A stretch of 64,000 bases of DNA, taken from assembly GCF_014695575.1 (NCBI RefSeq), contig NZ_JACJOO010000012.1, forward strand, positions 62,001 through 126,000. Reading direction: 5' to 3'. The number at the start of each line of letters is the position of its first letter. Position 1 is the first letter of the stretch. Origin of the DNA: Leptolyngbya sp. FACHB-8 (GTDB lineage Bacteria > Cyanobacteriota > Cyanobacteriia > Elainellales > Elainellaceae). Both the position numbers and the translations under genes were made by a program. Shown here piece by piece: positions 5,783 to 41,472 of this stretch. The notes beneath the pieces are model-generated. The model was not told the origin of the DNA, made no database searches, and saw only the letters and a list, made by a program, of their open reading frames with translations.

Positions 5783-5860
5783 CTCTAAAGACAGTTTGAA
5801 AACAACCCGATGCGGGGCTTTTCACTATTCCGGCATTGAGCAAAGAAATTGAGGAATTGT

Positions 5861-6226: not shown

Positions 6227-6228
6227 AG

Positions 6229-7143: not shown

Positions 7144-7247
7144 CGGTTGAGGATCTCCTACTCAATTTCGTTCTGTTTCTCATTTACTTTGTGGTTCTGC
7201 GATATGCAGTTCCCGTTTTCTGCTGAAGTCCCATCACCGTAATCCGT

Positions 7248-10200: not shown

Positions 10201-10340
10201 TCACACAGACGATGGAAGAAGTGGCGGCGATCGCCCGCAAAACCTGTACAGATTCCACCGAAATCGCCACCTCCTTCCAGAACCTCGTCCAAACAGCCGA
10301 ACTTCTGCAAAAGAGCGTCGACCAGTTCAAGGTGAATTAG
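7248..10340 (+). CDS. Soluble methyl-accepting chemotaxis protein with three GAF domains (PixJ-like)
   Basis: 1030 residues with no transmembrane helix, so probably cytoplasmic or recruited to the membrane by partners. Order: N-terminal helical region (1-120), GAF1 (about 135-285), GAF2 (about 310-465), GAF3 (about 490-680), a HAMP-like linker (about 705-765) and the receptor signalling domain with the hairpin-tip motif [18 protein letters not shown]2 and GAF3 resemble phytochrome/cyanobacteriochrome-type GAFs of phototaxis receptors. GAF2 has a Cys408-His409 pair and GAF3 a Cys615-Tyr616 pair at the position where a bilin attaches in PixJ-type sensors. Neither has a DXCF second cysteine, and GAF1 lacks the cysteine. 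Whether a bilin binds is unproven. Context with PixG/H/I/L homologues supports a photo- or chemotactic receptor. Confidence 0.92.
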
Positions 10341-10471
10341 TAGCGGCTTAGACGGTTTGGTTTTCGTCGTTAAACGGCGGAAACCAAACCGGTTTTTCCA
10401 AAAGCTGTGCGCGCTGCCCCCATCCCCCTACCGACTTCCCTGCCCCCCTACCCACTCACTCACCACTCACC

Positions 10472-13900: not shown

Positions 13901-13958
13901 TTACCCTCTGCCCCGCAGTTCATGCTCGTTTCTCTTCGTTATTCAGCTTTTACCCAGC

Positions 13959-14534
13959 ATGATGAAATCCTCCTCGCCCTTATCCAGGGAGCCTGCGATC
14001 GCTTCCTCCCCGTCTGTAATCTGTCAGGCTTTAACCTTTCAGGTACAGAATTATCGGTTTGCTTTGCCATTGGGCGCGATTGTTCGCATTGTTCAAGGGC
14101 GTTCGGCTCAGTCGTCTCAACGGGACTTGATCCAGTTTCATGCTGGTTCACCCATGCAGTTATTTGAAGGGGAGCCATTACCCATTCTTGATTTACGCAT
14201 GGCTCTGGTTGAGGCTTCTAGTACTCTTCCGCTCTCCAGCACAGCGGATACGATGGCTCAAACTATGGATGCTTTATTTTTGCTTATTGTCCGATTGCCG
14301 TCTTATCAATGCTGCGGTTTAGCGGTTGATCGGTTACCCAAAATTCAGCCCTTATCCCTCACCCAATGCCGTCGTCTACCAGAGTTTTATCGCCATAAAA
14401 TTGCAAATCTGGCCAGCCATGCAGTCGTGCAGGAGTCTGAGACAGACACGGATACATCTATTCTGTTCTTATTAGATTTGCAAAGTCTACAGTCTAATAG
14501 CCTTGCCACCTATTCCGACTGGAAGGATTTATAG
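13959..14534 (+). CDS. Second CheW-like adaptor of the chemotaxis operon
   Basis: About 192 residues from a double ATG (13959/13962), 58 bp after the CheA stop. The open frame continues upstream into the CheA gene, but that part is the out-of-frame reading of CheA. The core (ICQALTFQVQNYRFALPLGAIVRIVQG, then PLPILDLRMAL) is CheW-like, though divergent from the CheW at 6229 and with a long insertion near residues 95-125. It could be a receptor-specific adaptor or a competitor of the first CheW. It is the last gene before the operon-end hairpin. Confidence 0.8.
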   Translation: MMKSSSPLSREPAIASSPSVICQALTFQVQNYRFALPLGAIVRIVQGRSAQSSQRDLIQFHAGSPMQLFEGEPLPILDLRMALVEASSTLPLSSTADTMAQTMDALFLLIVRLPSYQCCGLAVDRLPKIQPLSLTQCRRLPEFYRHKIANLASHAVVQESETDTDTSILFLLDLQSLQSNSLATYSDWKDL

Positions 14535-24474: not shown

Positions 24475-24535
24475 AACTTTTGGCTCGCGTTCGCTATCTA
24501 TTATTTCCGATTACCGTCTGCCATTTCTTTTTCCC

Positions 24536-27214
24536 ATGACCTTCTTCAAATCTTCTAGTCTTCTATTTAAAATTGCTTTCTGGTTATTCAATACTTCATT
24601 ACTCCTGGTGATTTATTTAGGAGTAATGTTGATTTGGGGCATCGCCATCATCAACGATGCGATGGATGGCAACGTGCCCTGGGATTTTCTGGTGCCCTTT
24701 ATTGGGTTGGTGGGGGTGCCGACGACCTGTACGGTGGCAGAGATTGTCCCAAAGACGCGGCGATCGCTTCCCATCTTCCAATTGTTCTATGGGGTAGAGG
24801 CACCGCTTCTGACGTTTTGTCTACTGCGCTTCTTCTGGCTACGGGATCTAACCCCGGCGAATACGTTGATTTTAGGCATGAGTTTGGCGGGGGCGATCGC
24901 CTTCGCACACTGGTTATTTCAGGGAAGTAAGCCCCAATTTCAGCCGCAGTGGTGGCACCTGGCAGGGCATACGGTAATGCTGATGTTGGTGGGTTACTTG
25001 CTGGCCATTACTGCCTTTTACGTGCCGCCGATTGTGGCGATCGTTGTTATTGCGCTCATTCCCGCGAGCCTGTATGCCATCGTTGCATTTCCCTTCACAA
25101 TGTTGGTGATTGGGTTTGCATCCATGCCCATCGGAATGGCAGTCGTATATTGGCAGTCATGGCGACAGTGCTTCACTTCCCTGGTCAGCCGATATAGCGC
25201 CAAATGGGTCGGTGCATTCACAATAGCGGTTGCTGGGTCAGTGCTTGGGCTATTTATTCTGTTGCAACAACAACCTCAAAATCAGGCGTTTAAGTTGTTG
25301 GAACAACCGGCTCAAACCGATGCAGAGCGGCAGATATTACTCCAAAAATCTGAGATTATTCGCCAGGGTTTGCTCAATGCCTATCTAGCAAATTACCGCT
25401 ATCCCTACATTGAAAGCACACCGATCAAAGACATTTATCACTATCAATTCTCCTTGCCCGTGAGTATTGCTCAGGTGTTGCAGGATGCCTATGATTTTGT
25501 CATGGCTCCCTTTACCTACCAGGGCACCGAGGCCGACATTGACAGGGCAGCTGGGCTTTACGCACAGTTTTTTGACGCGCCCATTCTACGAGCTGAGAAA
25601 CCTGCAATTAAGCGGGCTATCCAATCGACCTTTGACCGCGGGCAGGCAAAAGCGGGCTTACTTGACATTGGGGAGCAGCGGGTCTGGCTAGCAAACCAGC
25701 AGGTGACGGTAAACCCCCAAGGGGATTGGGCTGACGTAGAGATACACGAAACCTATCAGAATCAAACCTTGAACCAGGAGGAAATCCTCTATTTCTTCTC
25801 GCTGCCGGAAAGCGCGGTATTAACAGGCCTTTGGCTGAATGAGACGGGCGATCGCGCCACTGCTTATCCCTATACCATTGCACCCCGAGGAGCTGCTCAG
25901 CAGGTCTACAACGAGGAGGTAGAGCGGCGAGTTGACCCGGCCCTGCTGGAGCAGGTTGGCCCCCGGCAATATCGTCTGCGGGCCTTTCCCATCCCACCCA
26001 GCGGTATGGGCGAAATGCACCTGTGGATGACCTATAAGGTGTTGCAGCAGGATGGTGGCTGGCCGATGCCACGCCTTAGTGAGCAACGCAACGTTTACTG
26101 GGACAATACCACACCGCACCAGGTGAACGGTAAAGTGGTCAATTTGAGTAGCGAGTGGCTGCCTGCAAGCGTTCCAGCAGAGGCCATAAAACCGAGCCAG
26201 CATCAGATTGATTTGCCCTGGGGGGCACATGTGCTGGCAGTGCCGTTGGAGGGCGATCGCTACCAATTGCCCCAGAACAAACGGTTGGCGATCGTCCTCG
26301 ATGGCTCCCGCAGCATGGAAACCCACCAGCCCGAGTTAAGCGCAACGATGGATTGGGTGCAGAACGTACTGCTGAAGCAGAACCAGGGTGACCTGTACTT
26401 GACCGCCATGTCTCCTGCGGCTCCCCAACGCATCGACAATTTGCAGGGGTGGGCGCTCCAAAAGACAACTTTTTATGGCACGTTGGAGCCCCGCCAAATG
26501 CTGGCCCAGTTTCAACAATTGCAGGGTGAGACGGCCTACGATGCCATTGTATTGATCACGGACCCTGGCAGTTATGAGCTGACGGCAGATAACACTACGG
26601 TGCTTCAAATGCCTGCACCTTTGTGGCTGGTTCATCTGGGCGGGTTACAACCGGCCTATGACGATGCCACACTACAAGCCATTCAAGATAGTGGTGGCAA
26701 CGTGGCGACTACCATCCAGGAGGCAATGCAGCGGCTCGGAACTCAGCCCAGCCAGGGGGAAGGTACATCCCTGCTCAATGTGGTGGACGGTTATGCCTGG
26801 TATGTTATCCAGCCAGCCAGTGAGACTACCCCAGCTAATCCCAGCTTTGAGCCATTGGCGGCCCGACAGTGGGTAACTCACCTCAGCCGTTATATAAAAC
26901 CCGATCAACTCAGCGAACTCGATACCATTCACGCTATCACGAAGGACTATGGCATTGTGTCGCCGTATTCCTCCATGGTCGTGCTGGTGAACGAAGAACA
27001 GCGGCAACGCCTGAGAGAACTAGAGCAATCGGAGGACCGCTTTAATCGAGAGGTGGAAGATCAGCAGTTACCTGAACCGGCCAGTGCTGTTTCTAGCGTT
27101 CCGGAGCCAGGGGAATGGCTGCTGCTGGGAGTAGTGGCGATCGCCCTTTCCGGTCTCTATTACCGTCAATTGCAGAGAGTAAAGAATTCAAGTGTATCTG
27201 CTCTCAGTAAGTAG
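24536..27214 (+). CDS. PEP-CTERM integral membrane protein with VIT and vWA-like domains, likely XrtO target
   Basis: 892 residues. About seven transmembrane helices occupy residues 10-245. A large extracytoplasmic region follows, with a VIT-type domain (about 375-495; VWLANQQVTVNPQG, ALLEQVGPRQYRLRAFPIPP) and a von Willebrand A-like domain (about 580-730) whose metal site reads DGSRSM. The C-terminus carries the sorting signal VPEPGEW, a hydrophobic helix (LLLGVVAIALSGLYY) and basic residues (RQLQRVK). The adjacent xrtO makes it the probable substrate. VIT-vWA proteins often mediate adhesion or complex assembly, but the role here is unknown. An N-terminal membrane domain in a PEP-CTERM protein is unusual outside this family. 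Confidence 0.88.
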   Translation: MTFFKSSSLLFKIAFWLFNTSLLLVIYLGVMLIWGIAIINDAMDGNVPWDFLVPFIGLVGVPTTCTVAEIVPKTRRSLPIFQLFYGVEAPLLTFCLLRFFWLRDLTPANTLILGMSLAGAIAFAHWLFQGSKPQFQPQWWHLAGHTVMLMLVGYLLAITAFYVPPIVAIVVIALIPASLYAIVAFPFTMLVIGFASMPIGMAVVYWQSWRQCFTSLVSRYSAKWVGAFTIAVAGSVLGLFILLQQQPQNQAFKLLEQPAQTDAERQILLQKSEIIRQGLLNAYLANYRYPYIESTPIKDIYHYQFSLPVSIAQVLQDAYDFVMAPFTYQGTEADIDRAAGLYAQFFDAPILRAEKPAIKRAIQSTFDRGQAKAGLLDIGEQRVWLANQQVTVNPQGDWADVEIHETYQNQTLNQEEILYFFSLPESAVLTGLWLNETGDRATAYPYTIAPRGAAQQVYNEEVERRVDPALLEQVGPRQYRLRAFPIPPSGMGEMHLWMTYKVLQQDGGWPMPRLSEQRNVYWDNTTPHQVNGKVVNLSSEWLPASVPAEAIKPSQHQIDLPWGAHVLAVPLEGDRYQLPQNKRLAIVLDGSRSMETHQPELSATMDWVQNVLLKQNQGDLYLTAMSPAAPQRIDNLQGWALQKTTFYGTLEPRQMLAQFQQLQGETAYDAIVLITDPGSYELTADNTTVLQMPAPLWLVHLGGLQPAYDDATLQAIQDSGGNVATTIQEAMQRLGTQPSQGEGTSLLNVVDGYAWYVIQPASETTPANPSFEPLAARQWVTHLSRYIKPDQLSELDTIHAITKDYGIVSPYSSMVVLVNEEQRQRLRELEQSEDRFNREVEDQQLPEPASAVSSVPEPGEWLLLGVVAIALSGLYYRQLQRVKNSSVSALSK

Positions 27215-27601: not shown

Positions 27602-30600
27602 ATGCTAGATTCACTCACTCTGTTGCTGGTCGGTGGCTTTCCCGCAGATCATGCCACCTACCAGCAGTTTCTGAGCCAGGATAAGCGCTATTCCTACAGA
27701 ATCACCGAATTTGAGAAAGGGAAGGATGCCCTGGCCTGGTGCCAGTCCAATACCGCAGACGTGATTCTGGTGGACGATACACTTCCCGATCTGGATGGGC
27801 TGTCATTTCTGAAGGCCTTAAAACAGCAGGATGAATCTGTGCTGCCTGTGGTTTTGTTAACCACAGGCAGCACTGTAGCTGTTATTGAGGCGATGCAGCA
27901 GGGTGCTCAGAACTATCTGGATAAACGTCAAATTACAGCGGAAAGCCTGTCTCAATGCATACACCATGTCCTCGTGCAAACCAGGTTCATGCGAGATTCA
28001 GGATGGCAGCAGGAACAACAACGACTCGTTGCAGCGATCGCCCTTGAACATGCAAAACTCTATGAGCATCTCCAACGGGAAATAATCCAACACCAACAAA
28101 GCGAAATCGCTCTCCATGCGGTGTTTGAACAATCTCCAGAAGGGAAAGTTCGCTTTGCCCCAGATGGTTCCTTCATTGCGGCAAACCGGGCATGGGAGGA
28201 AATCTGGGAAATATCAACAGACAGGCTCGTAGGCTATAACATCCTGCATGATCCGGCGGTTGTCCAGGAAGGTTATTTGCCGGCAGTACTTCGTGCCTTT
28301 GCTGGAGAAGCCGTCACCTGTCCCCCTTTTTTCCACGATCCCTCACAGTTCAATCGTCCTGGTCGTTCTCGGTGGATTGATCTGCTAATGCACCCCATCA
28401 AAAACCCGGTAGGATGCATTCTGGAAGTCGTGATGGTTATTCGGGATGCTACCGATCGCATCACCTTAGAGCAAGAACAACAACGATTAGTACAGTTGGT
28501 TGAGCATAGCCCCAGCTTTATTGGGACAGCTACTCTGGATGGGCAAGTTACCTTTATCAACCCGGCAGGGCAGGTACTTGTTGGCTTGGGTGTCGGTAAA
28601 ACGACGCAGACCATGGTTCCGGACTACCAAACTCCTGAAGAAAGCCAGCATTTCTATACTCAGGTTATTCCGGCTGTTCTCTCGGGAGGACAGTGGCAGG
28701 GAGAAGTAAGGATGCGCCACTTCCAGACCGGCGAACAGCTCCCCGTTTGGTGCAATACGTTTACGCTCTTCAACCCACAGACCGATCAGCCTGAGGCGAT
28801 CGCTGCAGTCATACAAGATTTGCGGGAGAAAAAACAGACAGAAGCCTTACTCAGGCAGCAAGCTGAATTATTGGACCTGGCTTATGATGCCGTCATTGCC
28901 TATGACATTTCCGGCAGAATTACTTTCTGGAATCGGGGAGCCGAGAGTTTATATGGATGGACGAAAGAGCAGGTAGCTGATCACGTATCTCATACTCTAT
29001 TTCAAACACAATTCCCCATTTCCTACGAAGTAATTCATGCGGCCATATTAGAACAAGGGTATTGGGAAGGCGAACTGATTCATACGCGGCAGGATGGGCA
29101 GAAGATTATTACAGAGAGCCGCCATTCCCTGATACGTGATACCCACGGCCAACCTACGCTGATTTTGGAAATTAACCGAGACATTACTGCCCGTAAACAG
29201 GCTGAGCACTCTCTGCGAGAAAGTGAGGAGAAATTCAGGCTACTCATCAAACACGCTCCTGTCAGAATTGCCATGTTGGACTGTGAAATGCGGTATGTCA
29301 CAGCCAGCCAGCGATGGGTGAATGATTTTCGTACGGAACCGCTTGAAGCCTTAATTGGGCAGTCTCATTACGATGTTTTTCCCGAACTTCCTGAACGCTG
29401 GAAACAAACGCATCAACGATGTTTGGCTGGAGCTATTGATTATTGCGAAGCAGATTTCTTCGTGCAACCCGATGGCCTGAAACAATGGATCAGAAGGGAA
29501 ATTCATCCCTGGTATCACCCCGACAATACGATTGGTGGCATCATTATCTTCTCTGAGGATATTACTGAGCGCCAACGAGCGCGACTGAACGAGCAATTTC
29601 TCAATCAATTAGAGCGGCGGCTGCGGCAACTTTCTGATATCAAAGCGATGCAATGGGAAGTTGTTAGCAGTTTGGGCGCATATTTAGATCTTGACCGTTG
29701 TTTATGGTGTGAAGTTGATAACAAACATAACGTTGTAGTGATTAATCAGGATTGGCGACAACCGGATCTTCCTAGCCATGCAGGCATGTATTCATTAGCA
29801 GACGTTATTCCTCTGGAGCTGCAAGCCCTTCATGCATCAGGTCAGCCTATTGTCATTGCTGATGTCTTAACCGATTCTCATACGGCGTCTAAAGCCAAGT
29901 TCTATCAGCAATTAAATATTGGCGCATTGATTGCCGTTTCTTGTGCCCATGCGGGTTATTGGGTTGCGACTCTTACGGGTAGTACTCGAACAGGCCGTCA
30001 GTGGCAAGAGGATGAAATTGTGTTAATGCAAGATGTTGTGTCGCGCCTCTGGAGCGTGATTGAGCAAACGCGATCGCTTGAATTATTGCGCCAAAGTGAG
30101 GAGAAGTTTCGCCAGTTAGCAGAAAACACTAATGATGTTTTTTGGATTAGTGAGCCTGAAATCAATGGGGTTCTCTACATTAACTCTGCCTACGAAAAGG
30201 TTTGGGGACGAAGCTGTGAAAGCCTGTATGCAGATCCAAAATCGTTTGTAGACGCAATTCATCCGGACGATCGAGAAGGATTTTTGGCGAGTGGGGCTGC
30301 AAGAGCAACGCAGTTTTACCAGAATGAATATCGAGTTGTCCGTCCTGATGGCTCGATTAGCTGGGTCATTGACAAAAACTTTCCGATTAGGAATGAGGCC
30401 GGTGAGGTTTATCGATGCTGTGGAATTGTTCACGATATCACCAGCCTTAAACAAGCCGAACAAGCATTGCAACGGGTAAACGAGTCTTTAGAAGAACGGG
30501 TTGCGGCACAAACTGCCGAACTTCAAGCCAGTGAACGCCTCTTAAATGCTTTTTTTGAGGCTACGTCTACCGCAAATATTGGCTTTTGCATTATCGACAA

Positions 30601-32533
30601 CGATTTACGGTACGTGAAGGTTAATGAAACGCTAGCTGCTGTAAATGGACAGTCTGTCGAGAACCTTGTGGGTGAACGCGTTGTCGATAGCATTCCAGAT
30701 ATTGCTGCTGCTGTTGAAGTCATAACACGAGGAGTCCTGACCACTCGACAACCCGTCATTAATTTAGAGATGGCAGCCGCTGCCCCTGCTCAACCGGATG
30801 TTATCAAACATTGGTTGGTCTCCTACTTCCCCATTATTCAGGGGAGCGATCGCCCCGATGCTCTGGGCTGCCTCCTGTTAGATATTAGCGATCGCAAACA
30901 GGCAGAACTTGATATGCAAGCGAGTGAAGCTGCACTCCGGACGTTATCTTACATCACGACTGTTCCTGGCCTTAGTTTTGAACAACGCCTTGAGCAGTTG
31001 TTCGAGTTTGGGAGTCACCAATTTGATTTGGATTATGGCTTCTTAGCCTGTGCTGTCGGTTACGATTACCACATCGTTGCTGCCAGGACCCCTAATGAAC
31101 CCGTGATGGTAGGCAAGGTGCTTGATCTTCGGCAAGCGTATTGTCTAGAAACCTTAAACTCCCCAGAACCCATCTGCATCGAACATGCGAGTCAATCCCA
31201 GTGGTGCGAGCATCCGGGCTATACCACCTCTGGCATGGAAAGCTACATCGGTATGCGCGTTCAGGTGTCCAATGAAAGTTATGGTGTTTTGTATTTTTGC
31301 AGTCGCCAACCTGTAGCGAAGCCTTTCAAAAAGATCGATCAGCAAATATTAAAGCTGATGAGCCAGTGGGTTGGCAGCGAGATTGAGCAACAACGATCGA
31401 ATGCTGCCTTAGAACAAAGTGAGGTGAAGTTCCGCAGTGCCTTTGAAGATGCCGCCATTGGTATGGTCCTCATTTCTCCTGCTGGGGCTATGCTTCAGGT
31501 TAACGATTCCCTCTGTAAAATGTTGGGCTACTCCGAAGCAGAGCTTTTGGGCATGGATTGTCAGCCCATAACACACCCAGAAGATCGCGATCGCTACCAA
31601 GCCTACGTTCAACAACTGCTGAATAATGAGCATTCTACATGTCAATTAGAGAAGCGATATTTCCACAAACAGGGGCACATTGTTTGGACAATTCTGAGCA
31701 TGTCGCTCGTTCGAGATATTCAAGAACAACCTCTGTATTTTGTTGCCCAAATCGAAGATATTACGGGTCTGAAACAAGCAGAACAGCAACTGTATCAACT
31801 CAACGCTCAACTTCAAGAAAGTAATCGAGAGCTAGAAAGCTTTGCCTTCATTGCCTCTCACGATTTGAAAGAACCCTTACGAACAGTGCGTAACTTCAGC
31901 ACATTGCTTCAATTAACCTGTGGTAAGGCCCTGAATGACGAGGGTAAAGACTATTTGGCTCGCATCGACAAGGCAACCCAACGCATGCAGGCATTGATCG
32001 ATGATCTGTTACGGCTTTCCAGGGTGGCAACCACAACAGCCCCCTTCGTGTCCGTTAATCTGAATCAGGTGATGGAGCAGGTTATCGCTAATCTTCAGGA
32101 GCAAGCTCAGCGTACAGGTGGGCAGATCCGAGTTGGTACCCTACCGACAATTGAGGCAGACCCGGGCCAGATGACCCAACTGCTTCAAAATTTGGTCAGC
32201 AATGCTTTAAAGTTTCATGGAGCAAGTCCACCTGTTGTAAACGTTTATGGAGATCAAAATTTAGGATCATTGGGTAGAAAAGATTGTGGGAATACTCAAT
32301 ACTATCGGCTGTGTGTAGAAGACAACGGCATCGGATTTGATCCGCAGTATTGCGATCGCATCTTTGGTGCTTTTGAGCGTCTGCATGGTCGTAGTGAGTA
32401 TGAAGGAACGGGTATTGGTTTGGCAATCTGCAAAAAAATTGTAGAGCGCCATGGCGGTACTATTGAAGCTCACAGTATCCCTGGTCAGGGTGCAACGTTT
32501 ATCCTGACTTTGCCTCAATTAACCGACGCTTAA
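27602..32533 (+). CDS. Module A sensor kinase: receiver-like, multi-PAS/GAF, SHDLKEPL histidine kinase
   Basis: About 1643 residues with no membrane helix. Order: receiver-like domain (1-120), PAS repeats interrupted by two GAF-like domains (about 160-1400), HisKA with His1420 in ASHDLKEPL, and HATPase_c ending GTGIGLAI. The receiver keeps acceptor Asp58 but its acidic pair is replaced by Gly11-Gly12, so phosphorylation is doubtful. The SHDLKEPL box is typical of phytochrome-type kinases that signal to Rcp1-like receivers, and such a receiver follows 22 bp downstream. The frame is open from ATG 27500, but that lies at the edge of a repeat. ATG 27602 is chosen because its product aligns from residue 1 with the paralogue at 34836. 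A short helix near residue 140 looks like the remnant of a lost GAF domain. Confidence 0.92.
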   Translation: MLDSLTLLLVGGFPADHATYQQFLSQDKRYSYRITEFEKGKDALAWCQSNTADVILVDDTLPDLDGLSFLKALKQQDESVLPVVLLTTGSTVAVIEAMQQGAQNYLDKRQITAESLSQCIHHVLVQTRFMRDSGWQQEQQRLVAAIALEHAKLYEHLQREIIQHQQSEIALHAVFEQSPEGKVRFAPDGSFIAANRAWEEIWEISTDRLVGYNILHDPAVVQEGYLPAVLRAFAGEAVTCPPFFHDPSQFNRPGRSRWIDLLMHPIKNPVGCILEVVMVIRDATDRITLEQEQQRLVQLVEHSPSFIGTATLDGQVTFINPAGQVLVGLGVGKTTQTMVPDYQTPEESQHFYTQVIPAVLSGGQWQGEVRMRHFQTGEQLPVWCNTFTLFNPQTDQPEAIAAVIQDLREKKQTEALLRQQAELLDLAYDAVIAYDISGRITFWNRGAESLYGWTKEQVADHVSHTLFQTQFPISYEVIHAAILEQGYWEGELIHTRQDGQKIITESRHSLIRDTHGQPTLILEINRDITARKQAEHSLRESEEKFRLLIKHAPVRIAMLDCEMRYVTASQRWVNDFRTEPLEALIGQSHYDVFPELPERWKQTHQRCLAGAIDYCEADFFVQPDGLKQWIRREIHPWYHPDNTIGGIIIFSEDITERQRARLNEQFLNQLERRLRQLSDIKAMQWEVVSSLGAYLDLDRCLWCEVDNKHNVVVINQDWRQPDLPSHAGMYSLADVIPLELQALHASGQPIVIADVLTDSHTASKAKFYQQLNIGALIAVSCAHAGYWVATLTGSTRTGRQWQEDEIVLMQDVVSRLWSVIEQTRSLELLRQSEEKFRQLAENTNDVFWISEPEINGVLYINSAYEKVWGRSCESLYADPKSFVDAIHPDDREGFLASGAARATQFYQNEYRVVRPDGSISWVIDKNFPIRNEAGEVYRCCGIVHDITSLKQAEQALQRVNESLEERVAAQTAELQASERLLNAFFEATSTANIGFCIIDNDLRYVKVNETLAAVNGQSVENLVGERVVDSIPDIAAAVEVITRGVLTTRQPVINLEMAAAAPAQPDVIKHWLVSYFPIIQGSDRPDALGCLLLDISDRKQAELDMQASEAALRTLSYITTVPGLSFEQRLEQLFEFGSHQFDLDYGFLACAVGYDYHIVAARTPNEPVMVGKVLDLRQAYCLETLNSPEPICIEHASQSQWCEHPGYTTSGMESYIGMRVQVSNESYGVLYFCSRQPVAKPFKKIDQQILKLMSQWVGSEIEQQRSNAALEQSEVKFRSAFEDAAIGMVLISPAGAMLQVNDSLCKMLGYSEAELLGMDCQPITHPEDRDRYQAYVQQLLNNEHSTCQLEKRYFHKQGHIVWTILSMSLVRDIQEQPLYFVAQIEDITGLKQAEQQLYQLNAQLQESNRELESFAFIASHDLKEPLRTVRNFSTLLQLTCGKALNDEGKDYLARIDKATQRMQALIDDLLRLSRVATTTAPFVSVNLNQVMEQVIANLQEQAQRTGGQIRVGTLPTIEADPGQMTQLLQNLVSNALKFHGASPPVVNVYGDQNLGSLGRKDCGNTQYYRLCVEDNGIGFDPQYCDRIFGAFERLHGRSEYEGTGIGLAICKKIVERHGGTIEAHSIPGQGATFILTLPQLTDA

Positions 32534-32555
32534 GCTTCCCGATGGCAACAGTCCC

Positions 32556-33011
32556 ATGCATGGAAACGTTTTGTTAATTGCTGAAGATAATCCAGACGAT
32601 CGCTTATTGATTGAGCGTGCCTGGAGTTGTATACCCCACATTCAACTTTTCCTGGTTGAAGATGGAGAAGAGCTGATGAATTTTCTTGCTCACCAGGGAA
32701 AGTATGCTCAAGCTGATGTCTTCCCCCGCCCCAATCTCATCCTGCTTGACCTCCGAATGCCACGAAAGAACGGTTTTGAGGTTCTGAAAGACTTGAAAAC
32801 TGCCCCCGAGTGGAAATCTATTCCGACGGTAGTAGTCACGACCTCTGATGCGGCTACTGATATTGATCGGGCCTATGAGTTAGGAGCTAACTCTTACATC
32901 ATCAAGCCTCAAACCATTCAGGAAATCCTGGAACTGGCGGAAGTTCTTAATCATTACTGGTTCTCAAAAGCCTGTTTACCGCACAGTACGAGACAGAGCC
33001 TGAAAAGTTGA
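32556..33011 (+). CDS. Module A Rcp1-like single-domain response regulator
   Basis: 151 residues of the Rcp1 type, with AEDNPDDR at the N-terminus, acceptor Asp in LLDLRMPRKNG, TTSD and IKPQTIQEI. Rcp1 receives phosphate from phytochrome-type kinases with a matching SHDLKEPL dimerisation box, so the upstream kinase is the likely donor. The closest relative in the window is the receiver at 37885, about 65-70% identical by eye. The short spacer suggests co-transcription. Confidence 0.93.
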   Translation: MHGNVLLIAEDNPDDRLLIERAWSCIPHIQLFLVEDGEELMNFLAHQGKYAQADVFPRPNLILLDLRMPRKNGFEVLKDLKTAPEWKSIPTVVVTTSDAATDIDRAYELGANSYIIKPQTIQEILELAEVLNHYWFSKACLPHSTRQSLKS

Positions 33012-33149
33012 TTTTGCCTACCTTTTAGCAAGCCCCAATAATTTTTGTCTAATTTGGGCATTCTAAGGAAAAGTTAAATGTCGAACTGGCTTGTATCAGT
33101 ATTTTTGCCTGTTCTTGGTAAGCAAAAACAATAGTTCAGGGACCCATTA

Positions 33150-34391
33150 ATGGAGCTTCAACACCTCAAAATTCTTTTCGTTGAAGACAACGAAGATGAT
33201 TACATTGCTGTTCGTGCAATGCTGGCAACTGCGCGAGAACCTGAATTTGAGGTGGTATGGGTGGCAACCTATGAAGCAGCTTTGACCCATTTGGGTTATC
33301 AACAAAACAAGCCACAAGATCCCACCTATCACTATAATGCCTGCCTACTGGACTATCATCTGGGGGAGCATAACGGGCTAGAAATTTTGCAGAAAGCGCT
33401 CTTCATGGGTCATCATCCCCCGATCATTCTGCTCACAGGGCAGGGGGCGCGTGATGTTGATCAGCAAGCCTTAGAGCTAGGTGCAGCCGCTTTTCTGGCA
33501 AAGGATGAGATTAGCCCGACTAGCTTAGAACGAACGATTCGTTATGCTATCCGGCAAAAACAAGCAGAAACCCGGTTACACCAATCTCAGGAGATGTTGG
33601 CCCAGGCGAATGCTACGTTGAAGAGTAGAGTTGCCGAGCAGTCCGCAGAACTGGAACATACTCGTGAGCAAGAAGCCTATTTGCGTAAACTGCAAGCGCG
33701 GCTGCTATCCTCGGTTTCCCACGAGTTCCGCACCCCATTGATGTCGATTCAGGGAGCTGCTGAACTGATAGAGGAGTTCCCGTCGGATGAAGATACTCAA
33801 TCTCAGCGGTTTCAAAAGATTTATGCCAGTGTCGATCGCATTACTCAATCGCTAGATAATGCGATGATTCATGCAGCGTTAGAGGCTGGTTCCATCCCCT
33901 TTAGACCGGTATCCGTTGATCCTGAATGGCTTTGCAAAGAACTTGTCGCTAACCTGCAACAGTTCCTGGGGAAACAGCAGCAGCTTGAATTTATCAATCA
34001 CATGGATTCGGCCAAGGTGGTGCATTTGCATGTGAATGTCGTTCAACTCATTTTGACCCAGCTGGTTTTAAACGCAATCCGCTATGCACCTGACAGCCGT
34101 GTTATCCAGTTAGAACTGGGCTGTAAGCCGCAACCAGAGGGCCAAAGTATTGTTTTTGAGGTGAAAGATACGGGTATTGGAATTCCATCAGATGAACTGA
34201 ATAAAGTCTTTGATGCATACTACCGGGCTACGAATGCCGACTTAATTTCGGGTACACCGGGCATTGGTGTAGGGTTGGCGATCGTTAAGCGAGCTACTGA
34301 ACTTCATGGCGGCCACGTCACCCTCAGGAGTGAATTAGGGGTAGGGACAACCGCTATGCTCTCTCTACCCATCCTTGAACGAGAAGCCTAA
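33150..34391 (+). CDS. Module A receiver-histidine kinase
   Basis: 413 residues. A complete N-terminal receiver (FVEDNEDD, acceptor Asp68 in LLDYHLGEHNG, LTG, AKDE) is joined by a coiled coil (about 135-180) to HisKA with His191 (SVSHEFRTPLMS) and HATPase_c (DTGIGIPSDEL, GVGLAIV). Receiver-first kinases of this type have their kinase activity controlled by phosphorylation of the receiver. Here the donor could be the module A kinase, directly or through the Rcp1-like protein. The paralogue at 38951 aligns without gaps through the catalytic His. Confidence 0.92.
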   Translation: MELQHLKILFVEDNEDDYIAVRAMLATAREPEFEVVWVATYEAALTHLGYQQNKPQDPTYHYNACLLDYHLGEHNGLEILQKALFMGHHPPIILLTGQGARDVDQQALELGAAAFLAKDEISPTSLERTIRYAIRQKQAETRLHQSQEMLAQANATLKSRVAEQSAELEHTREQEAYLRKLQARLLSSVSHEFRTPLMSIQGAAELIEEFPSDEDTQSQRFQKIYASVDRITQSLDNAMIHAALEAGSIPFRPVSVDPEWLCKELVANLQQFLGKQQQLEFINHMDSAKVVHLHVNVVQLILTQLVLNAIRYAPDSRVIQLELGCKPQPEGQSIVFEVKDTGIGIPSDELNKVFDAYYRATNADLISGTPGIGVGLAIVKRATELHGGHVTLRSELGVGTTAMLSLPILEREA

Positions 34392-34427
34392 TACCTAATT
34401 TCATCGCTTCTGCAAATAAGACTACGT

Positions 34428-34553
34428 CATGGTAACGGATGGGGTAGATTTCCATCTACCACACCCGTTATCATGGCGTAAGCCCTACTAGGGTTGTTCT
34501 AGATATGTGGTTGCTTGTTATGGAAGGGGCGTTTTGCGCTTCTTCCATAACAA
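34428..34553. repeat. Two intergenic hairpins between modules A and B
   Basis: First hairpin at 34428-34475, imperfect (CATGGTAACGG ... CCGTTATCATGG) with a GGTAGAT/ATCTACC inner stem. Second hairpin has 12-bp arms at 34515-34526 and 34542-34553 (TTGTTATGGAAG). They probably terminate module A. The rest of 34392-34835 shows no gene and should hold the module B promoter. Confidence 0.65.
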
Positions 34554-34835
34554 CCAATCCCATATTTAAAGCATGACCATCCTGGTAAACGAATTCTCTT
34601 GTTCCCAGGTAATCTAAAATTTGAGGAAAAAATTAGTGTTTTGTAGCACCGGAATGTACCAGACATGAGGTGTTTCATACACTAAATGTTTCCTATTTGG
34701 AGACAGAAAGCCATGTTTAAGTGGCACTGAGTTACACAAAGGCTGTACTCAGATCCTCAGGTTTCCTAGAAATTTTGGGTCTGCTCCCCTGAACCCAGTG
34801 CTGCTTAACCTAATGGTCGTTCCCTGCTGCTATCT

Positions 34836-37800
34836 ATGCCAGATCCGATGATCCTGTTACTGATCGATGCCTCTCCCACTGATCGAGCGCTCTATCAACT
34901 CCTTCTAAATCAGGACGATCGCCACTCCTATAAAATTATTGAATGCGAAAAAGGGAAAGATGCTCTGGTCTGGTGTGAGCATAATGCGGTAGATGTGATC
35001 CTGCTGAATGACATGCTTCCCGACCTGAATGGGCTAGAGTTTTTAGAGGCGTTGAAACAGCAAAGTCAAGAAACCGTGCTGCCAGTTGCACTGCTAGTCG
35101 ATTCAGGAAGCATAGATGTTGCACTTGAAGCGATGAATCAAGGGGCTCAGACCTATCTGGATAAGAGCCGGATAACGGCGGAGAGTCTATCTCAATGTGT
35201 GCATCATGTTCTGGCGCAAAGTAGGCTGAAGCGAGAATTGGCGTGGCAGCAGGAACAACAACGACTCGTCGCGACGATGGCGCAGCGGATTCGCCAAGCC
35301 CTGAATCTCGATGAAATTCTTCAGACAGCCGTTCATGAACTTCGCTCACTCCTACGAAGCGATCGAGTACTGCTTTACCGCTTCAACCCCGACTGGAGCG
35401 GGCAGGTTGTGATGGAGTCGGTGGGGGGCGAATGGACATCCTTGATCGGTAGAGTGATTGATGAGTCCTGCTTTAAAGGTGACTTGGTTCAAGCCTATTT
35501 TCATGGTCGGGTGAGCCGTATTGAGGATCTTCATACCGCCGCTATTCAGCCCTGTCATCGGGAGATGCTGTCGCAATTTCAGATCCAGGCAAATCTGGTG
35601 GTTCCGCTGATTCATCACAGCAAACTGTGGGGGCTATTGATTGCCCATCACTGTGCAAATGCGCACCGATGGCAGGAACGGGAAATTGATTTGATGCAAC
35701 AGGTGGCGACTCAACTGGCAATCGCCATTGAGCAAGCCGAACTTCATGCCCATCTCCTCAAAGAACAGACCCAGCGACAACAGGCAGAGATACGCTTTCA
35801 GTTGATGTTTGATCAAACCCCCGAGGGCCAAATACGCTTTGCCCCGGATGGTCAGGTGATTGCCGTCAATCGGGCCGGAGAAGAGATTTGGAATGCCCCA
35901 GCACAGGCACTAGTAGGGTACAACATCTTGCAGGATCCCTTTGTTGAGATGGACGGTCAGCGACTCGAGGTCATGCGTGCGTTTGCTGGGGAGCATGTTT
36001 CCCTGGTTCCCTTTTTCCATGATCCCTCTACGCTGGGGCGGCCGGGTCGTCCCCGTTGGGTTGATATACTTTTGTACCCCATTAAAGACGCTCAGGGGCA
36101 TGTTTTGGAAGTTGTCATGGTGACGCGGGACATCACCGACCGTATGACGGCAGATCCAGAACAACCATTAGTTCGGTTGGTTGAAAACAGCCCTCATAAG
36201 GGAACGGCTACCTTGGATAGGCAGATGACATTACTGGCGCTGCGTGCTAGTGAAGCCCGATTGAGCTTGGCTCAATCTGCTAGTAACTCGGCAGTGTGGG
36301 ATTGGAACATTACCACGAACACAGCATTCTGGTCGCCTGAGTTCTACCAGCTTTTAGAGCTTGACCCTGCTATTACCCCCAGCTTGGACAACTGGCTACA
36401 GTGTATTCATCCTGACGATCGCGACAAAGTGAAAGAGCAAACATTGCAATGCTTGACTGATGGATCGTCCAATATTAGGGTTGAGTTTCGGCTCATTGGT
36501 ACCCAGGCATTGCAATGGGCTGCTGGAATTGGAAGGATTTTTCGCAATTCCAACGGTGAAGCTGTTCGGATGCTAGGGATTTTGATTGACATTACCCAGC
36601 AGAAGCAAACAGAAATTGCATTGCAGGAATTAAATAGTGAGTTAGAGCAACGTGTTGTAGAACGCACTGCTGAATTAGTTGACCTGAATGATCGTTTACT
36701 TCCGGCTTACAACAGTCAGATACAAACTCAAGACGCATTACATACAAGCGAAGAGCGCCTCCGATTGGCCCTTGATTTTACTCATATTGGATGCTGGGAT
36801 TGGCATTTTCCCAGTGGTGAAGTGATCTGTAATGAACAATTCTTCAGGCTACTAGGTTCAACCTTCGATACGCGGCAAGTGAAGGGCGAACTGATTTATG
36901 CAGTTTGGCGGAGTCATGTTCATCCAGATGATTTGGATTGGGTGGTTCACCAGTTCTCAGACTCGATTGAGAAACAGACGGAGTATACCGTGGAATATCG
37001 AGTCGTGCATGACGATGGCTCCATCCGTTGGGTGATGTCACGGGCTCAAGGCATTTACGATGAGACTGGTCAATTACTGCGATCCATTGGCATTCTGTTG
37101 GATATTAACGATCGCAAACTGGCAGAACAACGCTTGCACGAACTGAATGTGCAACTCCAGAAAAGCAACAAGGAGTTGGAAAACTTTGCCTTCCTGGCTT
37201 CTCACGATTTGAAGGAGCCTTTACGAACGGTACGAAACTTTAGTACCCTGCTCCAGTTAACGTGTGCTGAATCTTTGCAGGAGGAAGGCAAGGACTATCT
37301 GAACCGCATCGGGAGAGCAACACAGCGGATGCAGTTAATGATTGACGACTTACTTCAACTCTCCCGCATATCGACCGCAACAACCCCCTTCACATCGGTT
37401 GACTTAAATCGGGTAATAGATCAGGTCATTGCTAATCTTGAAGAGCAAATTCGGCTGACCGCAGGCCAAATTCAGGTAGGAACTCTGCCGACCATTCAAG
37501 CCGATCCCATCCAGATGATTCAACTTTTCCAAAATCTGATCAGTAACGCTTTAAAGTTTCACGGAACTGCTCCGCCTTTGGTAAGAATTTATGTCAGGGA
37601 GAATCTGTTACCACAGAATAGTGCGAATCTGGGAAGTACGCAAAATTATGTGCTTTGCATAGAGGACAATGGCATTGGGTTTGATCCAAAATATCGCGAT
37701 CGCATCTTTGGAGCCTTTGAACGTTTACAGGGCCGCAGTCAGTATGAGGGAACCGGTATAGGCCTGGCTATCTGTAGAAGGATTGTGGAACGGCATGGGG

Positions 37801-37877
37801 GCACAATTGAAGCTCACGGTACTCCTGGTCAGGGATCAACCTTCACCCTGACATTGCCTCGCTCAATTCGCGTCTAG
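34836..37877 (+). CDS. Module B sensor kinase with two-cysteine cyanobacteriochrome GAF domain
   Basis: 1013 residues, soluble. Order: receiver-like domain (1-120) with Asn58 at the acceptor position (LLNDMLPD), GAF domain (about 150-300), PAS domains (about 315-770), HisKA with His790 (ASHDLKEPL) and HATPase_c. The GAF has PDWSGQVV, a DESCF stretch with Cys212, and Cys240-His241 (QPCHREML). The 28-residue gap between the cysteines equals that between the two chromophore cysteines of TePixJ as I recall it. It is therefore a strong candidate for a DXCF-type cyanobacteriochrome (here E-S-C-F), binding phycocyanobilin or phycoviolobilin, probably blue-absorbing in one state. A PAS domain near residues 440-470 is cut short (VENSPHKGTATLDRQM, then a new linker). 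Light input, kinase output and the Rcp1-like receiver downstream form a coherent pathway. Confidence 0.92.
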   Translation: MPDPMILLLIDASPTDRALYQLLLNQDDRHSYKIIECEKGKDALVWCEHNAVDVILLNDMLPDLNGLEFLEALKQQSQETVLPVALLVDSGSIDVALEAMNQGAQTYLDKSRITAESLSQCVHHVLAQSRLKRELAWQQEQQRLVATMAQRIRQALNLDEILQTAVHELRSLLRSDRVLLYRFNPDWSGQVVMESVGGEWTSLIGRVIDESCFKGDLVQAYFHGRVSRIEDLHTAAIQPCHREMLSQFQIQANLVVPLIHHSKLWGLLIAHHCANAHRWQEREIDLMQQVATQLAIAIEQAELHAHLLKEQTQRQQAEIRFQLMFDQTPEGQIRFAPDGQVIAVNRAGEEIWNAPAQALVGYNILQDPFVEMDGQRLEVMRAFAGEHVSLVPFFHDPSTLGRPGRPRWVDILLYPIKDAQGHVLEVVMVTRDITDRMTADPEQPLVRLVENSPHKGTATLDRQMTLLALRASEARLSLAQSASNSAVWDWNITTNTAFWSPEFYQLLELDPAITPSLDNWLQCIHPDDRDKVKEQTLQCLTDGSSNIRVEFRLIGTQALQWAAGIGRIFRNSNGEAVRMLGILIDITQQKQTEIALQELNSELEQRVVERTAELVDLNDRLLPAYNSQIQTQDALHTSEERLRLALDFTHIGCWDWHFPSGEVICNEQFFRLLGSTFDTRQVKGELIYAVWRSHVHPDDLDWVVHQFSDSIEKQTEYTVEYRVVHDDGSIRWVMSRAQGIYDETGQLLRSIGILLDINDRKLAEQRLHELNVQLQKSNKELENFAFLASHDLKEPLRTVRNFSTLLQLTCAESLQEEGKDYLNRIGRATQRMQLMIDDLLQLSRISTATTPFTSVDLNRVIDQVIANLEEQIRLTAGQIQVGTLPTIQADPIQMIQLFQNLISNALKFHGTAPPLVRIYVRENLLPQNSANLGSTQNYVLCIEDNGIGFDPKYRDRIFGAFERLQGRSQYEGTGIGLAICRRIVERHGGTIEAHGTPGQGSTFTLTLPRSIRV

Positions 37878-37884
37878 CTCTCTA

Positions 37885-38364
37885 ATGGCCACGAGTGTTA
37901 TGTTGCAAAACGTTCTGCTAGTTGCTGAAGATAATCCAGATGACCGCCTATTGATGCAGCACGCCTGGAGCCATCGACCCCATGTGCAACTCTTTCTGGT
38001 TGAAGATGGGGAAGAGGTTATAGATTTTCTGGCTCATCAGGGAACGTATACGCAGTCAGACAGCTTTCCGCGGCCTGATCTCATCCTATTGGATCTTCGA
38101 ATGCCGCGCAGGAACGGGTTTGAAGTTCTAGAAGCGTTAAAGAAACATCCAGATTGGAAAGCCATTCCCATTGTCGTGGTTACCACCTCTAATGCTGTTG
38201 AAGATGTCTACCGTGCCTATGAGTTGGGAGCGAATTCTTATATTAGCAAGCCACAAACGATTCAAGAGATTTTTGAACTGGCAGACAGCCTTGACCAATA
38301 CTGGTTTGGTCGGGCTTGCCTACCCCGCAAACTTCATTCAAACTTGTTCAGTAGCGATCGCTAA
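37885..38364 (+). CDS. Module B Rcp1-like single-domain response regulator
   Basis: 159 residues. Acceptor Asp is intact (LLDLRMPRRNG), as are AEDNPDD, TTSN and SKPQTIQEI. It begins 7 bp after the kinase stop. ATG 37900 is an alternative start that matches the module A paralogue exactly (MLQNVLLVAEDN against MHGNVLLIAEDN). In module A the equivalent upstream ATG is out of frame by one base. Likely phosphorylated by the module B light-sensing kinase. Confidence 0.92.
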   Translation: MATSVMLQNVLLVAEDNPDDRLLMQHAWSHRPHVQLFLVEDGEEVIDFLAHQGTYTQSDSFPRPDLILLDLRMPRRNGFEVLEALKKHPDWKAIPIVVVTTSNAVEDVYRAYELGANSYISKPQTIQEIFELADSLDQYWFGRACLPRKLHSNLFSSDR

Positions 38365-38535
38365 AGCTCCTCTTACCACAAAACATCCAGGCTTTAAGCC
38401 ACTCAACGTAAGACCCAAAGTGCCGTATTGACCGTCTGGGGAGAGAGACAACACTTTGGATTTTAAGTCTAAACATAACCACCTACTTTACCGCATCTTG
38501 AAACTACTTGAAGTGACTTCTATAGCCTTGGCTCA

Positions 38536-38600
38536 GTTGGTTAGGACATTGGGAGCTATTGAAGGCATTGCCTTTAATAGCTCCCAATGTCCTAACCAAC
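38536..38600. repeat. Long hairpin between module B genes
   Basis: A 65-nt inverted repeat with about 32-bp arms and one mismatch (G opposite T), flanked by TATAGC on the left and GATAGC on the right. It interrupts the module B operon, so it may lower expression of the third gene or reflect an insertion. The remaining sequence up to 38950 has no gene. Confidence 0.85.
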
Positions 38601-38950
38601 GGCGATAGCAATTGTTGAATAACTGTAATCAGGATGTGTATCCTGAATTACCATTCCGTATTCGTTATTCAACTGGATTTGAGATGAGTCTGGAAGATTA
38701 AGACCTTTATCCTTTATGAAATCTGCCTAACTCATGATAAAAATGACGGTGGGTATAGAATACAGATGTGCTGGAAGTACAAAATACACCATTAAACCTT
38801 TAAACTTTATGGATGAGTACTGAAGCGATCGCTATGGCATAGTTTTTGTGAATGGGCGTAAAGGTTTTACAATCATATCCATTCTTGGAGGCAGTCCATA
38901 TTAGGCAATCCACTCCCCATCAGAAGGAATAATTGTTCAGGCGTGAGTTC

Positions 38951-40186
38951 ATGAGTCGTCAGCCCATTAAAATTCTGTTTGTTGAGGACAATGAAGATGA
39001 TTACATTGCTGTGCGTGAAATGCTGGCAATTGTACGGGAGCTTCAATTTGAAGTGGAATGGGCTGCAACCTATGAAGAGGCTATCTCTAGCCTCACTCGT
39101 AAAGCTGATGAGTCCCAAGATGCACCCGGTTCTTACGATGCCTGCCTACTAAACTACTATCTGGGAGAACGTAACGGGCTAGAGGTTCTGCAACAGGCGC
39201 TATCCTATGGGCCTCAGCCTCCCATTATTCTCCTGACGGGAGTGGCAAATCGTGACATTGATTTGCAAGCGATGGAAATGGGCGCAGCTAATTTTTTGGC
39301 AAAGGATGAAATTAGCCCTGCTAACCTGGAGCGTACAATCCGTTATGCTATCCGGCAGAAGCAAGTCGAAGCTCTGCTGTACCAGGCCCAGAGAGCACTC
39401 GCCCAGGCGAACGCTACGTTAGAAAGCAAAGTTGCGGAACAATCCGCTGAATTGGAGCAAACCCGTGAGCAAGAAGCTTATCTTCGCCAGCTTCAGGCTC
39501 GATTGTTACCTTCGGTTTCCCATGAGTTTCGCACCCCATTGATGTCGATTCGGGGATCCGCTGAACTGATAGAAGGTTACCCGTCTGACCAAGATACACA
39601 ATCCCTACGGTTTCAGCGCATTTATGCGGGTGTCGATCGCATTACCAAAACCCTGGATAATGCCTTAATTTATGCTGCGCTAGAGGCAGGTTCCATTCCA
39701 TTTCAACCTGCACCGACGGATCTAGTCGCTGTTTGTGAAGAGCTGATCGCTAATCTTCAACAGTTGGCAGAACCACAACAGTTAGAGTTTGTCAATTCCT
39801 TCCGTCTCTCTTCGCCAGTTTCGGTTGACATTAGTTTGGTTCAACTGATGCTGACTCATCTAGTGCTGAATGCTATTCGTTACGCGCCTAACGCTGATTC
39901 GATTCAATTGGAACTCAGTTGTGAACAGCAAAACGAGTTGCAAACCATTGTGTTTTACATCAGAGATACCGGTATTGGAATTCCGTCCGATGAGCTGGAG
40001 AGCGTTTTTGATGGATACTACCGGGCCAGTAATGCCAATTCCATCCCCGGTACTCCTGGCATTGGTCTTGGGCTGGCAATCGTCAGACGGGCAGCTGAGC
40101 TACATAATGGGCAAGTTACACTCAACAGTGAGTTAGGGTTTGGTACAACTGCAGTGCTTTCCTTGCCTCTAACGATCGCTAGATAG
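38951..40186 (+). CDS. Module B receiver-histidine kinase with Asn at the acceptor position
   Basis: 411 residues, same architecture as the module A kinase at 33150. HisKA His191 (SVSHEFRTPLMS) and HATPase_c (DTGIGIPSDEL, GLGLAIV) are intact. In the receiver the acidic pair (VEDNEDD) and Lys (AKDE) are kept, but the acceptor is Asn68 (LLNYYLGERNG, codon AAC). The receiver cannot be phosphorylated normally and may be locked in one state. ATG 38951 is chosen by alignment with the paralogue. A TTG at 38933 has a better AGAAGGA ribosome-binding site and would add six residues. Confidence 0.92.
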   Translation: MSRQPIKILFVEDNEDDYIAVREMLAIVRELQFEVEWAATYEEAISSLTRKADESQDAPGSYDACLLNYYLGERNGLEVLQQALSYGPQPPIILLTGVANRDIDLQAMEMGAANFLAKDEISPANLERTIRYAIRQKQVEALLYQAQRALAQANATLESKVAEQSAELEQTREQEAYLRQLQARLLPSVSHEFRTPLMSIRGSAELIEGYPSDQDTQSLRFQRIYAGVDRITKTLDNALIYAALEAGSIPFQPAPTDLVAVCEELIANLQQLAEPQQLEFVNSFRLSSPVSVDISLVQLMLTHLVLNAIRYAPNADSIQLELSCEQQNELQTIVFYIRDTGIGIPSDELESVFDGYYRASNANSIPGTPGIGLGLAIVRRAAELHNGQVTLNSELGFGTTAVLSLPLTIAR

Positions 40187-40197
40187 CTTGTAAAAAA

Positions 40198-40277
40198 ACT
40201 GAGTTCGGGTTAAGGGTGTTTTCGAGTGCCGCACAACGCGCGGCACTCGAAAACACCCTTAACCCGAACCGAGGTTA
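40198..40277. repeat. Family 5 hairpin element, copy A
   Basis: Perfect 29-bp stem (40204-40232 and 40240-40268) with a 7-nt loop, just after the module B kinase. Shares GAGTGCCGC and GTTTTCGAGTG words with the copy at 60367-60468. With the next hairpin it separates two convergent transcripts. Confidence 0.9.
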
Positions 40278-40356
40278 AAAAAGGGAGAGAGGTGGGGCAA
40301 AACCCTACCTCCTAATCCTTAACTCTGGTGCTGAATAATCTAGTTTCGAGCAAGTT

Positions 40357-40405
40357 AAGATGCCTGTTTTTGCGTGTGCGAAGCACACGCAAAAACAGGC
40401 ATCTT
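40357..40405. terminator. Perfect 23-bp hairpin, probable bidirectional terminator
   Basis: Arms 40357-40379 and 40383-40405 pair over 23 bp with loop GAA. It lies between the plus-strand module B kinase and the minus-strand DHH gene, whose stop is 21 bp away. T- and A-runs inside the arms would weaken RNA-DNA pairing in either direction. Confidence 0.8.
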
Positions 40406-40425
40406 GGAACTCAAATTAAATATGC

Positions 40426-41472
40426 CTACGCTTTTGAGAAGCCGAGTTGAGTGAGCAATTGTTGCCAGCGATCGCGCGGCAAGCTTCCACCCGATGCCTG
40501 GTCATGGCCATTTGCATAGTTGCCTTCACCGCCGCTCAGGGGGTGCGATCGCAAAAATTCCAGCACGTTGATGGAATTGGAACGGGCTGAGAAATTGATG
40601 CGATTGGGTATATAACCTTCATTGGCAGCAATGACGACATAGCCAGGGAGACGGCTACGCCAGCTCTGGGCGATCAGTGGATGTATCTGGCAGGGAGAGT
40701 TCAGTTGGAGTAACGCTACCTTACCCGCAAAGATAGGAGCGACCTTACGGGCTTCCTCCAGGGCGTGTTTCACCTCCTCGCGGGCCTGGCGCAGTTGAAC
40801 CACTTCCGAGGAGTTGGAGTTGACCAGGGACTTGGGATCCGAATGATTTAATAGCGCGGCAACTGCCGCTTCTGGTTGATAGTGGGAGGCACGACGGGAC
40901 GCGTTGATCAAAGCGGTGGCTTCTTTGAGATACTTGGCCGTGTACTTGCGTTTGGCCTGAGTGAGTAGGTCGAAGGGAGCACGATCGCCCAGGTCACTCA
41001 AGGTTCCAATGGCTGCAATCCAATCTAAATCTGATACATCAGCAATGGATTGACAGAGCTGCCAAACAAGCCAGGAAGTGTTGGGAATGGGATCCCAGGT
41101 ATAGGCACTGATGAGTGTATCTCCATCAGGTACTCCTTCAGGATGGTGATGGTCGATAAAGCAGGTCGGGACGCCATCTAGAACGGCTTCGGAGCCGCTA
41201 CCCAAATCCATAACAAAGAGGAATTCCGGCTGGGTAGAGGCAATACGATCGCGGTTTGCCTCCGTCCAGACGTTGCGTTCGCGGTCAGGGATGACAGGAT
41301 GGATACGCGCGAACCCTGCGCGTTCGAATGCTCGCTGCCATACAACACCCGCCGTTACGCCATCGGCATCAGAATCGTAAGCCCCTGTGACGGGTGCGTT
41401 TGTAGAAATGCGATCGACAAACGTTTTAAACGCCTGACATGCGCTGTTTAAATCTGGAATGTTCATCTTCAA
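40426..41472 (-). CDS. DHH-family phosphoesterase
   Basis: 348 residues. The first DHH motif reads YDSDADG (Asp33, Asp35, Asp37) and the second FIDHHHPEG (Asp107, His108-110), with GTLSDLGD further on. The C-terminal part has a GG-containing DHHA1-like segment (HPLSGGEGNYANGHDQASGG). Such proteins are manganese-dependent phosphodiesterases or RecJ-like exonucleases; the substrate is not evident. It lies 85 bp downstream of an ATP-dependent DNA ligase on the same strand, which favours a nucleic-acid repair role over cyclic-dinucleotide hydrolysis. Confidence 0.88.
   Translation of the reverse strand: MKMNIPDLNSACQAFKTFVDRISTNAPVTGAYDSDADGVTAGVVWQRAFERAGFARIHPVIPDRERNVWTEANRDRIASTQPEFLFVMDLGSGSEAVLDGVPTCFIDHHHPEGVPDGDTLISAYTWDPIPNTSWLVWQLCQSIADVSDLDWIAAIGTLSDLGDRAPFDLLTQAKRKYTAKYLKEATALINASRRASHYQPEAAVAALLNHSDPKSLVNSNSSEVVQLRQAREEVKHALEEARKVAPIFAGKVALLQLNSPCQIHPLIAQSWRSRLPGYVVIAANEGYIPNRINFSARSNSINVLEFLRSHPLSGGEGNYANGHDQASGGSLPRDRWQQLLTQLGFSKA

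Follow-up and report, generated by a model that had tools for sequence, protein, structure and literature searches.

Some bacterial histidine kinases are controlled by a receiver domain at their own N-terminus. The prototype of these receiver-controlled kinases is LvrB of Leptospira, in which receiver phosphorylation forms a coiled coil in the αS helix and frees the catalytic domain (PMC13269768). An LvrB D56A variant shows basal kinase activity only and is not stimulated by the upstream kinase LvrA (PMC5863495). The KipF-PakF pair of Sphingomonas melonis is cited in that paper as one in which one kinase phosphorylates the N-terminal receiver of a second (PMC5863495). In Anabaena, a REC-GGDEF protein is fed by a hybrid kinase in the CdgK-CdgS system, which controls cell size (PMC9927289).

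Receivers that lack any of the conserved DD, D, T and K residues are termed pseudo-receivers (PMC12632262), and RitR (Asn53), CikA and ShkA are examples of Asp-less or pseudo-receivers (PMC4395418, PMC12632262). Pseudo-receivers that bind ligands or partner proteins have been reviewed (PMC12632262). Asn makes up 16% of acceptor substitutions in Asp-less receivers, and deamidation of Asn to Asp occurs in some receivers (PMC4395418). A 2025 review describes the workings of pseudo-receivers within two-component systems that are otherwise normal as unresolved (PMC12632262).

Two adjoining copies of a three-gene cassette

The window, the whole stretch of 64,000 nucleotides of Leptolyngbya sp. FACHB-8 DNA that was analysed, contains two copies (A and B) of a three-gene cassette side by side. 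The six genes lie on the + strand with the order and starts given in a preliminary description of this DNA (Table 1). In each cassette a sensor kinase (gene 1) is followed by an Rcp1-like free receiver (gene 2) and a receiver-headed histidine kinase (gene 3). Gene 1 encodes a receiver (REC1), then PAS/GAF units, then a histidine kinase; in gene 3 the receiver (REC3) is followed by a helical linker and a histidine kinase. The copies are 63% identical in REC1, 73% over the core of gene 2 and 68% in gene 3. As DNA they are ~70% identical, with the divergence spread throughout. All reading frames of copy B are intact and its kinase motifs complete.

Table 1. Coordinates of the cassette genes, receiver residues and inverted repeat, in positions of the window
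Feature	Position	Strand	Description	Basis
A1	27602..32533	+	REC1 pseudo-receiver-PAS/GAF array-HisKA (H1420)-HATPase	Pfam, alignment, codons
Gly11-Gly12 of A1	27632..27637	+	codons GGT GGC, at the place of the acidic pair	
Asp58 of A1	27773	+	codon GAC	
A2	32556..33011	+	Rcp1-like free receiver with Asp	Pfam, tree
A3	33150..34391	+	REC3, acceptor site complete-αS-HisKA (H191)-HATPase	Pfam, alignment, codons
Asp68 of A3	33351	+	codon GAC	
B1	34836..37877	+	REC1-GAF-PAS-HisKA (H790)-HATPase	Pfam, alignment, codons
Asn58 of B1	35007..35009	+	codon AAT	
B2	37885..38364	+	Rcp1-like free receiver with Asp	Pfam, structure matches
31-bp inverted repeat	38536..38600	+	B2-B3 gap	
B3	38951..40186	+	REC3, acceptor alone changed-αS-HisKA (H191)-HATPase	Pfam, alignment, codons, model, Foldseek
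Asn68 of B3	39152..39154	+	codon AAC	

The two modules had been said to align domain by domain, which for gene 1 is only partly so. A1 (1643 aa) and B1 (1013 aa) can be matched over the receiver, a single PAS stretch and the kinase at the C-terminus; A1 has additional PAS/GAF units. The gene is not collinear throughout: A1 is ~630 residues longer, mostly in PAS/GAF units, and the GAF domain directly after the receiver is B1's own. Pfam reported no phytochrome domain in the sensor kinase. Gene 2 encodes a single receiver of ~150 aa next to a kinase, and its nearest structures are Rcp1/RcpA/RcpB-like (for B2: 6xvu, 8avv and Rcp1, 1i3c), as in Rcp1-type free receivers. The three genes stand together in both copies, and A and B fall inside each family tree of the cassette formed by a sensor kinase (HK1), an Rcp1-type receiver and a REC3 protein. 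A His-Asp-His-Asp phosphorelay usually passes through an Hpt domain. Pfam found no Hpt domain in the six cassette proteins, and 'phosphorelay' was a name that the preliminary description had inferred from the sequence.

The gap between genes 2 and 3 is 586 bp in copy B compared to 138 bp in copy A, and it is widened by the 31-bp inverted repeat (3-base loop; RNA fold -63 kcal/mol, z -12.5). About 10 related dispersed copies of this hairpin, at about 70-83% identity, occur in the genome, and we rejected it as a special element. A scan for terminators and promoters in 32400-41000 returned fewer sites than shuffled sequences did. Elsewhere in the window, 4362-14534 holds a chemotaxis-like operon (a DUF4388 receiver protein, a CheY-like receiver, CheW, a GAF-rich MCP, CheA with a receiver, and a second CheW). 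An exosortase-like gene followed by a gene for a VIT-domain protein with a PEP-CTERM-like tail occupies 22948-27214; the VIT protein has relatives in 3 of the 11 family genomes searched.

Acceptor residues and their pockets

The codons bear out that both kinase-linked receivers of copy B carry Asn at the position where those of copy A carry Asp (residue 58 in gene 1, 68 in gene 3), and that both free receivers retain Asp. The REC3 pocket is complete in A3 (E12, D13, D68, T96, K118), and in B3 (E12, D13, N68, T96, K118) the acceptor is the sole change. The REC1 pocket of A1 (G11, G12, D58, T87, K108) has lost both Mg-site acids. That of B1 (D11, A12, N58, Val at the Thr/Ser site, Lys kept) has one Mg-site acid left, and the DD2 acid is absent from both. 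All five catalytic residues are present in A2, B2 and A3; A1, B1 and B3 each lack at least one of DD, D, T and K and are pseudo-receivers by definition. Judging from these residues, the B3 receiver is almost certainly unable to take phosphate in the normal way, and deamidation of Asn68 to Asp, if it took place, would restore phosphorylation.

The proposal that two working receivers lost their acceptors in a coordinated, parallel way is not supported by these pockets, given the degenerate REC1 of A1 and the loss of the DD2 acid in both copies. Because A1 and B1 both lack that acid, the simplest history, by parsimony on two sequences, is one in which REC1 was already non-catalytic before the duplication, which we regard as probable. 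A hybrid kinase elsewhere in the window (94-3726) also starts with an Asp-less receiver, with Ser at the acceptor and Thr at DD2.

Frequency of Asp loss in REC1 and REC3

We chose the relatives for comparison by their resemblance to A1, B1 and A3, a choice that could be biased towards look-alikes; among them, REC1 and REC3 differ in how often Asp is lost (Fisher p 0.006). REC1 lacks Asp in 10 of 79 relatives (6 Asn, 2 Ser, 2 Ala), which amounts to about ten separate changes on the tree, and one relative (L088) resembles B1 in pairing an Ala at DD2 with an acceptor Asn. REC3 has Asp in all 53 distinct relatives, and B3, with Asn, is the sole exception. On this evidence the two Asn residues are not equivalent, and the earlier reading of them as a matched pair is not supported.

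A 0.8 Mb sample of the genome that holds the two cassettes, made up of chosen receiver-rich stretches, gave a baseline of 12 Asp-less receivers among 158, five of them with Asn (B1 and B3 included). Chance would give about 0.06-0.16 neighbouring Asn pairs; taken by itself, and with the whole window having been searched, the pair is thus only a weak surprise. What the comparison leaves as informative is a single change, D68N in B3; the other Asn lies in a worn REC1 domain that loses Asp readily. Seven of the 12 Asp-less receivers (loci L199-L238 plus the window) were N-terminal in long proteins, i.e. 7/44 at such positions and 5/114 elsewhere (Fisher p 0.04, with the classes drawn after the fact).

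Duplication of the cassette and its relatives

A pairs with B in four separate domain trees (SH-aLRT 98 for REC1 and 99 each for the gene 1 kinase core, the free receiver and REC3), in agreement with the earlier claim of a module duplication. In the trees of the kinase core, free receiver and REC3 the next neighbours are from the same cassettes in three genomes (G224, G084 and G152). By its sequence, the three-gene cassette is duplicated in tandem. The duplication is old, because dS between the copies (about 1.5-2.6) is near saturation. Within their own genome A3 and B3 have no close relative but each other; the next is 34% identical.

Among the other 389 sampled genomes of the class, one of the same genus included, no full-length relative of A3 was found at E < 1e-70. 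A contig search for whole-module orthologues gave distant matches only, and no close relative with this pair of modules was found in the genomes sampled. We also searched 11 relatives for an empty site via the flanking ligase and VIT genes. The same-genus genome has neither gene above threshold; both are present only in G145 and G173, where they lie on different contigs or ~270 kb apart (G173 contig 2).

The cassette of HK1, Rcp and REC3 with an output domain recurs in many other cyanobacterial genomes, where the output is GGDEF, GGDEF-EAL or a kinase. G084 has, in addition, two HK1-Rcp pairs arrayed with two REC3 proteins. A fusion of REC1 to this kinase was not found in any of the other fetched loci. 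In G127 (L071, 798-2659), two short fragments of REC3 come after a free receiver; one has Val in place of the Thr, and one match contains an internal stop; from its sequence this cassette looks like one that is decaying.

Selection and structure of gene 3

In domains where dS was computable, dN/dS was 0.09-0.22 between the copies and 0.11-0.22 for A3 versus B3, values that average both branches and rest on a near-saturated dS. The REC3 branch is not longer in B3 than in A3 (0.26 compared to 0.41). The free receiver has a branch of 0.65 in B2 and 0.05 in A2, and the gene 1 kinase core one of 0.6 in B1 and 0.27 in A1. B3 keeps all its kinase motifs. Between A3 and B3 the linker (78%) and the dimerisation domain (81%) are better conserved than the receiver and ATPase (63-64%), and the distance from the receiver Lys to the kinase His is 73 in both proteins.

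An AlphaFold model of B3, of moderate confidence (pLDDT 76, pTM 0.47, 11 sequences), predicts that a single 63-residue helix links the receiver to the DHp and CA domains. The six best PDB matches of this model in Foldseek were all LvrB chains, over the full length, with low TM-scores (about 0.36) that result from differently arranged domains. LvrB was also found by sequence search. A3 and B3 both have the REC-helical linker-DHp-CA order of LvrB (Pfam; for B3 also the predicted fold and Foldseek). The A3 receiver has the acceptor site of the LvrB type (Asp with DD, T and K). In B3 the acceptor Asp is missing, and the protein is LvrB-like in build without being classed as a phospho-controlled member. 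By analogy with LvrB, phosphorylation would control A3, and B3 would be uncoupled from it.

Kinase-receiver contacts

The first helix of the gene 1 kinase, which varies in other cassettes, is identical between A and B over 23 residues, starting two before the His. On the receiver side, the contact stretches DDRLL and KPQTIQ are the same in A2 and B2. Because the contact residues hardly differ between the copies, we would expect cross-talk, with the sensors sharing receivers, rather than insulation. B1 could reach A2 and the A3 receiver; within module B, a flow of phosphate to the free receiver only is possible.

A model for the two cassettes and its alternatives

From sequence, and from a protein of another bacterium, we infer where phosphate flows, that B3 sits in a basal state, and that there is cross-talk between the copies. 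In this lineage the effector of the cassette is itself an LvrB-type histidine kinase, and an additional pseudo-receiver stands at the N-terminus of HK1. The sensor kinase of copy A would pass phosphate both to the free receiver and to the receiver of A3, whose kinase would thereby be turned on. B3, whose receiver is complete apart from D68N, would be blind to upstream input, and might then run at a basal level, act as a phosphatase or answer to some other input. B1 would go on feeding the free receivers, and its Asn58 would be secondary wear in a domain that was non-catalytic beforehand. To this reading, in which B3 is a kinase uncoupled by D68N and held under purifying selection, we give about even credence.

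The preliminary description offered a different account, in which both kinase-linked receivers of copy B lost Asp together and phosphate was rerouted to B2 only. Both Asn residues are real, both free receivers keep Asp, and Asn is one of several substitutions that could have occurred (5 of the 12 Asp-less receivers in the genome sample have it). However, with the Mg-site acids gone from A1 and DD2 from both copies, gene 1 had little to lose. Moreover, REC1 loses Asp frequently and with no link to REC3, and B1, with nearly the same contact residues, may reach A2 and A3 too; we therefore consider such a coordinated rewiring unlikely. Neutral decay of a redundant copy B could account for the several pocket losses in REC1 and for the longer branches of B2 and of the B1 kinase core. 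It would leave unexplained the intact frames, complete kinase motifs and low dN/dS, as well as a B3 receiver that is no faster than that of A3, and it seems to us distinctly improbable. The single base that separates Asp68 from Asn68 (GAC to AAC) might suggest a sequencing or assembly error. The change at residue 58 requires two bases, both sites lie in copies that have diverged throughout (about 70% DNA identity), and the assembly is good (99.5% complete), which makes an error highly implausible.

The B3 receiver might instead be a dedicated pseudo-receiver with another input, a ligand or a partner protein as in CikA and ShkA, or might act through mixed A3-B3 dimers. The coiled-coil linker and the dimerisation domain are the best-conserved parts of A3/B3, the linker length is identical, and pseudo-receivers that bind ligands or partners are known (PMC12632262). 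Kinase-kinase interaction has also been reported between GacS and its partner kinases (PMC4866733, PMC5992135). Such conservation of the DHp domain and linker is, however, usual in kinases; neither a ligand site nor a partner was found for B3, and its single pocket change is unlike most pseudo-receivers. We consider this pair of options unlikely. A more specific form, in which B3 is a phosphorylation-blind partner of A3 in mixed dimers held by the linker and dimerisation helices, B3 expression sets the gain of the A3 switch, and the free receivers are shared, appears to us rather improbable.

A3 and B3 form a natural matched pair: adjoining, 68% identical receiver-headed kinases, one with and one without the acceptor Asp, and otherwise complete. 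Such a pair allows the part that an unphosphorylatable receiver plays for its kinase to be tested directly. In wider terms the result is modest, in that a picture of paired losses is corrected and one of the two falls in a domain that is often without Asp. The variation itself is real, if modest, with ordinary signalling parts in an unusual combination.

Comparison with known systems

Among the closest described systems is LvrA-LvrB of Leptospira (PMC13269768, PMC5863495), where, as here, an upstream PAS kinase adjoins a REC-αS-DHp-CA kinase. Unlike that system, the present locus has a free Rcp1-like receiver between the kinases, occurs in two copies, and has no acceptor Asp in B3. In structural alignment, B3 and LvrB are about 21% identical. 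KipF-PakF, as cited in PMC5863495, resembles the scheme proposed here, in which the sensor kinase would phosphorylate the gene 3 receiver, and differs in phylum and kinase type. The likeness to Cph1-Rcp1 lies in the free receiver, with B2 matching the structures of Rcp1, RcpA and RcpB, whereas the sensor here is PAS/GAF-based. Finally, B3 shares with Asp-less and pseudo-receivers a receiver fold in which the acceptor is replaced, but, unlike them, it keeps the other four catalytic residues and heads an LvrB-type kinase.
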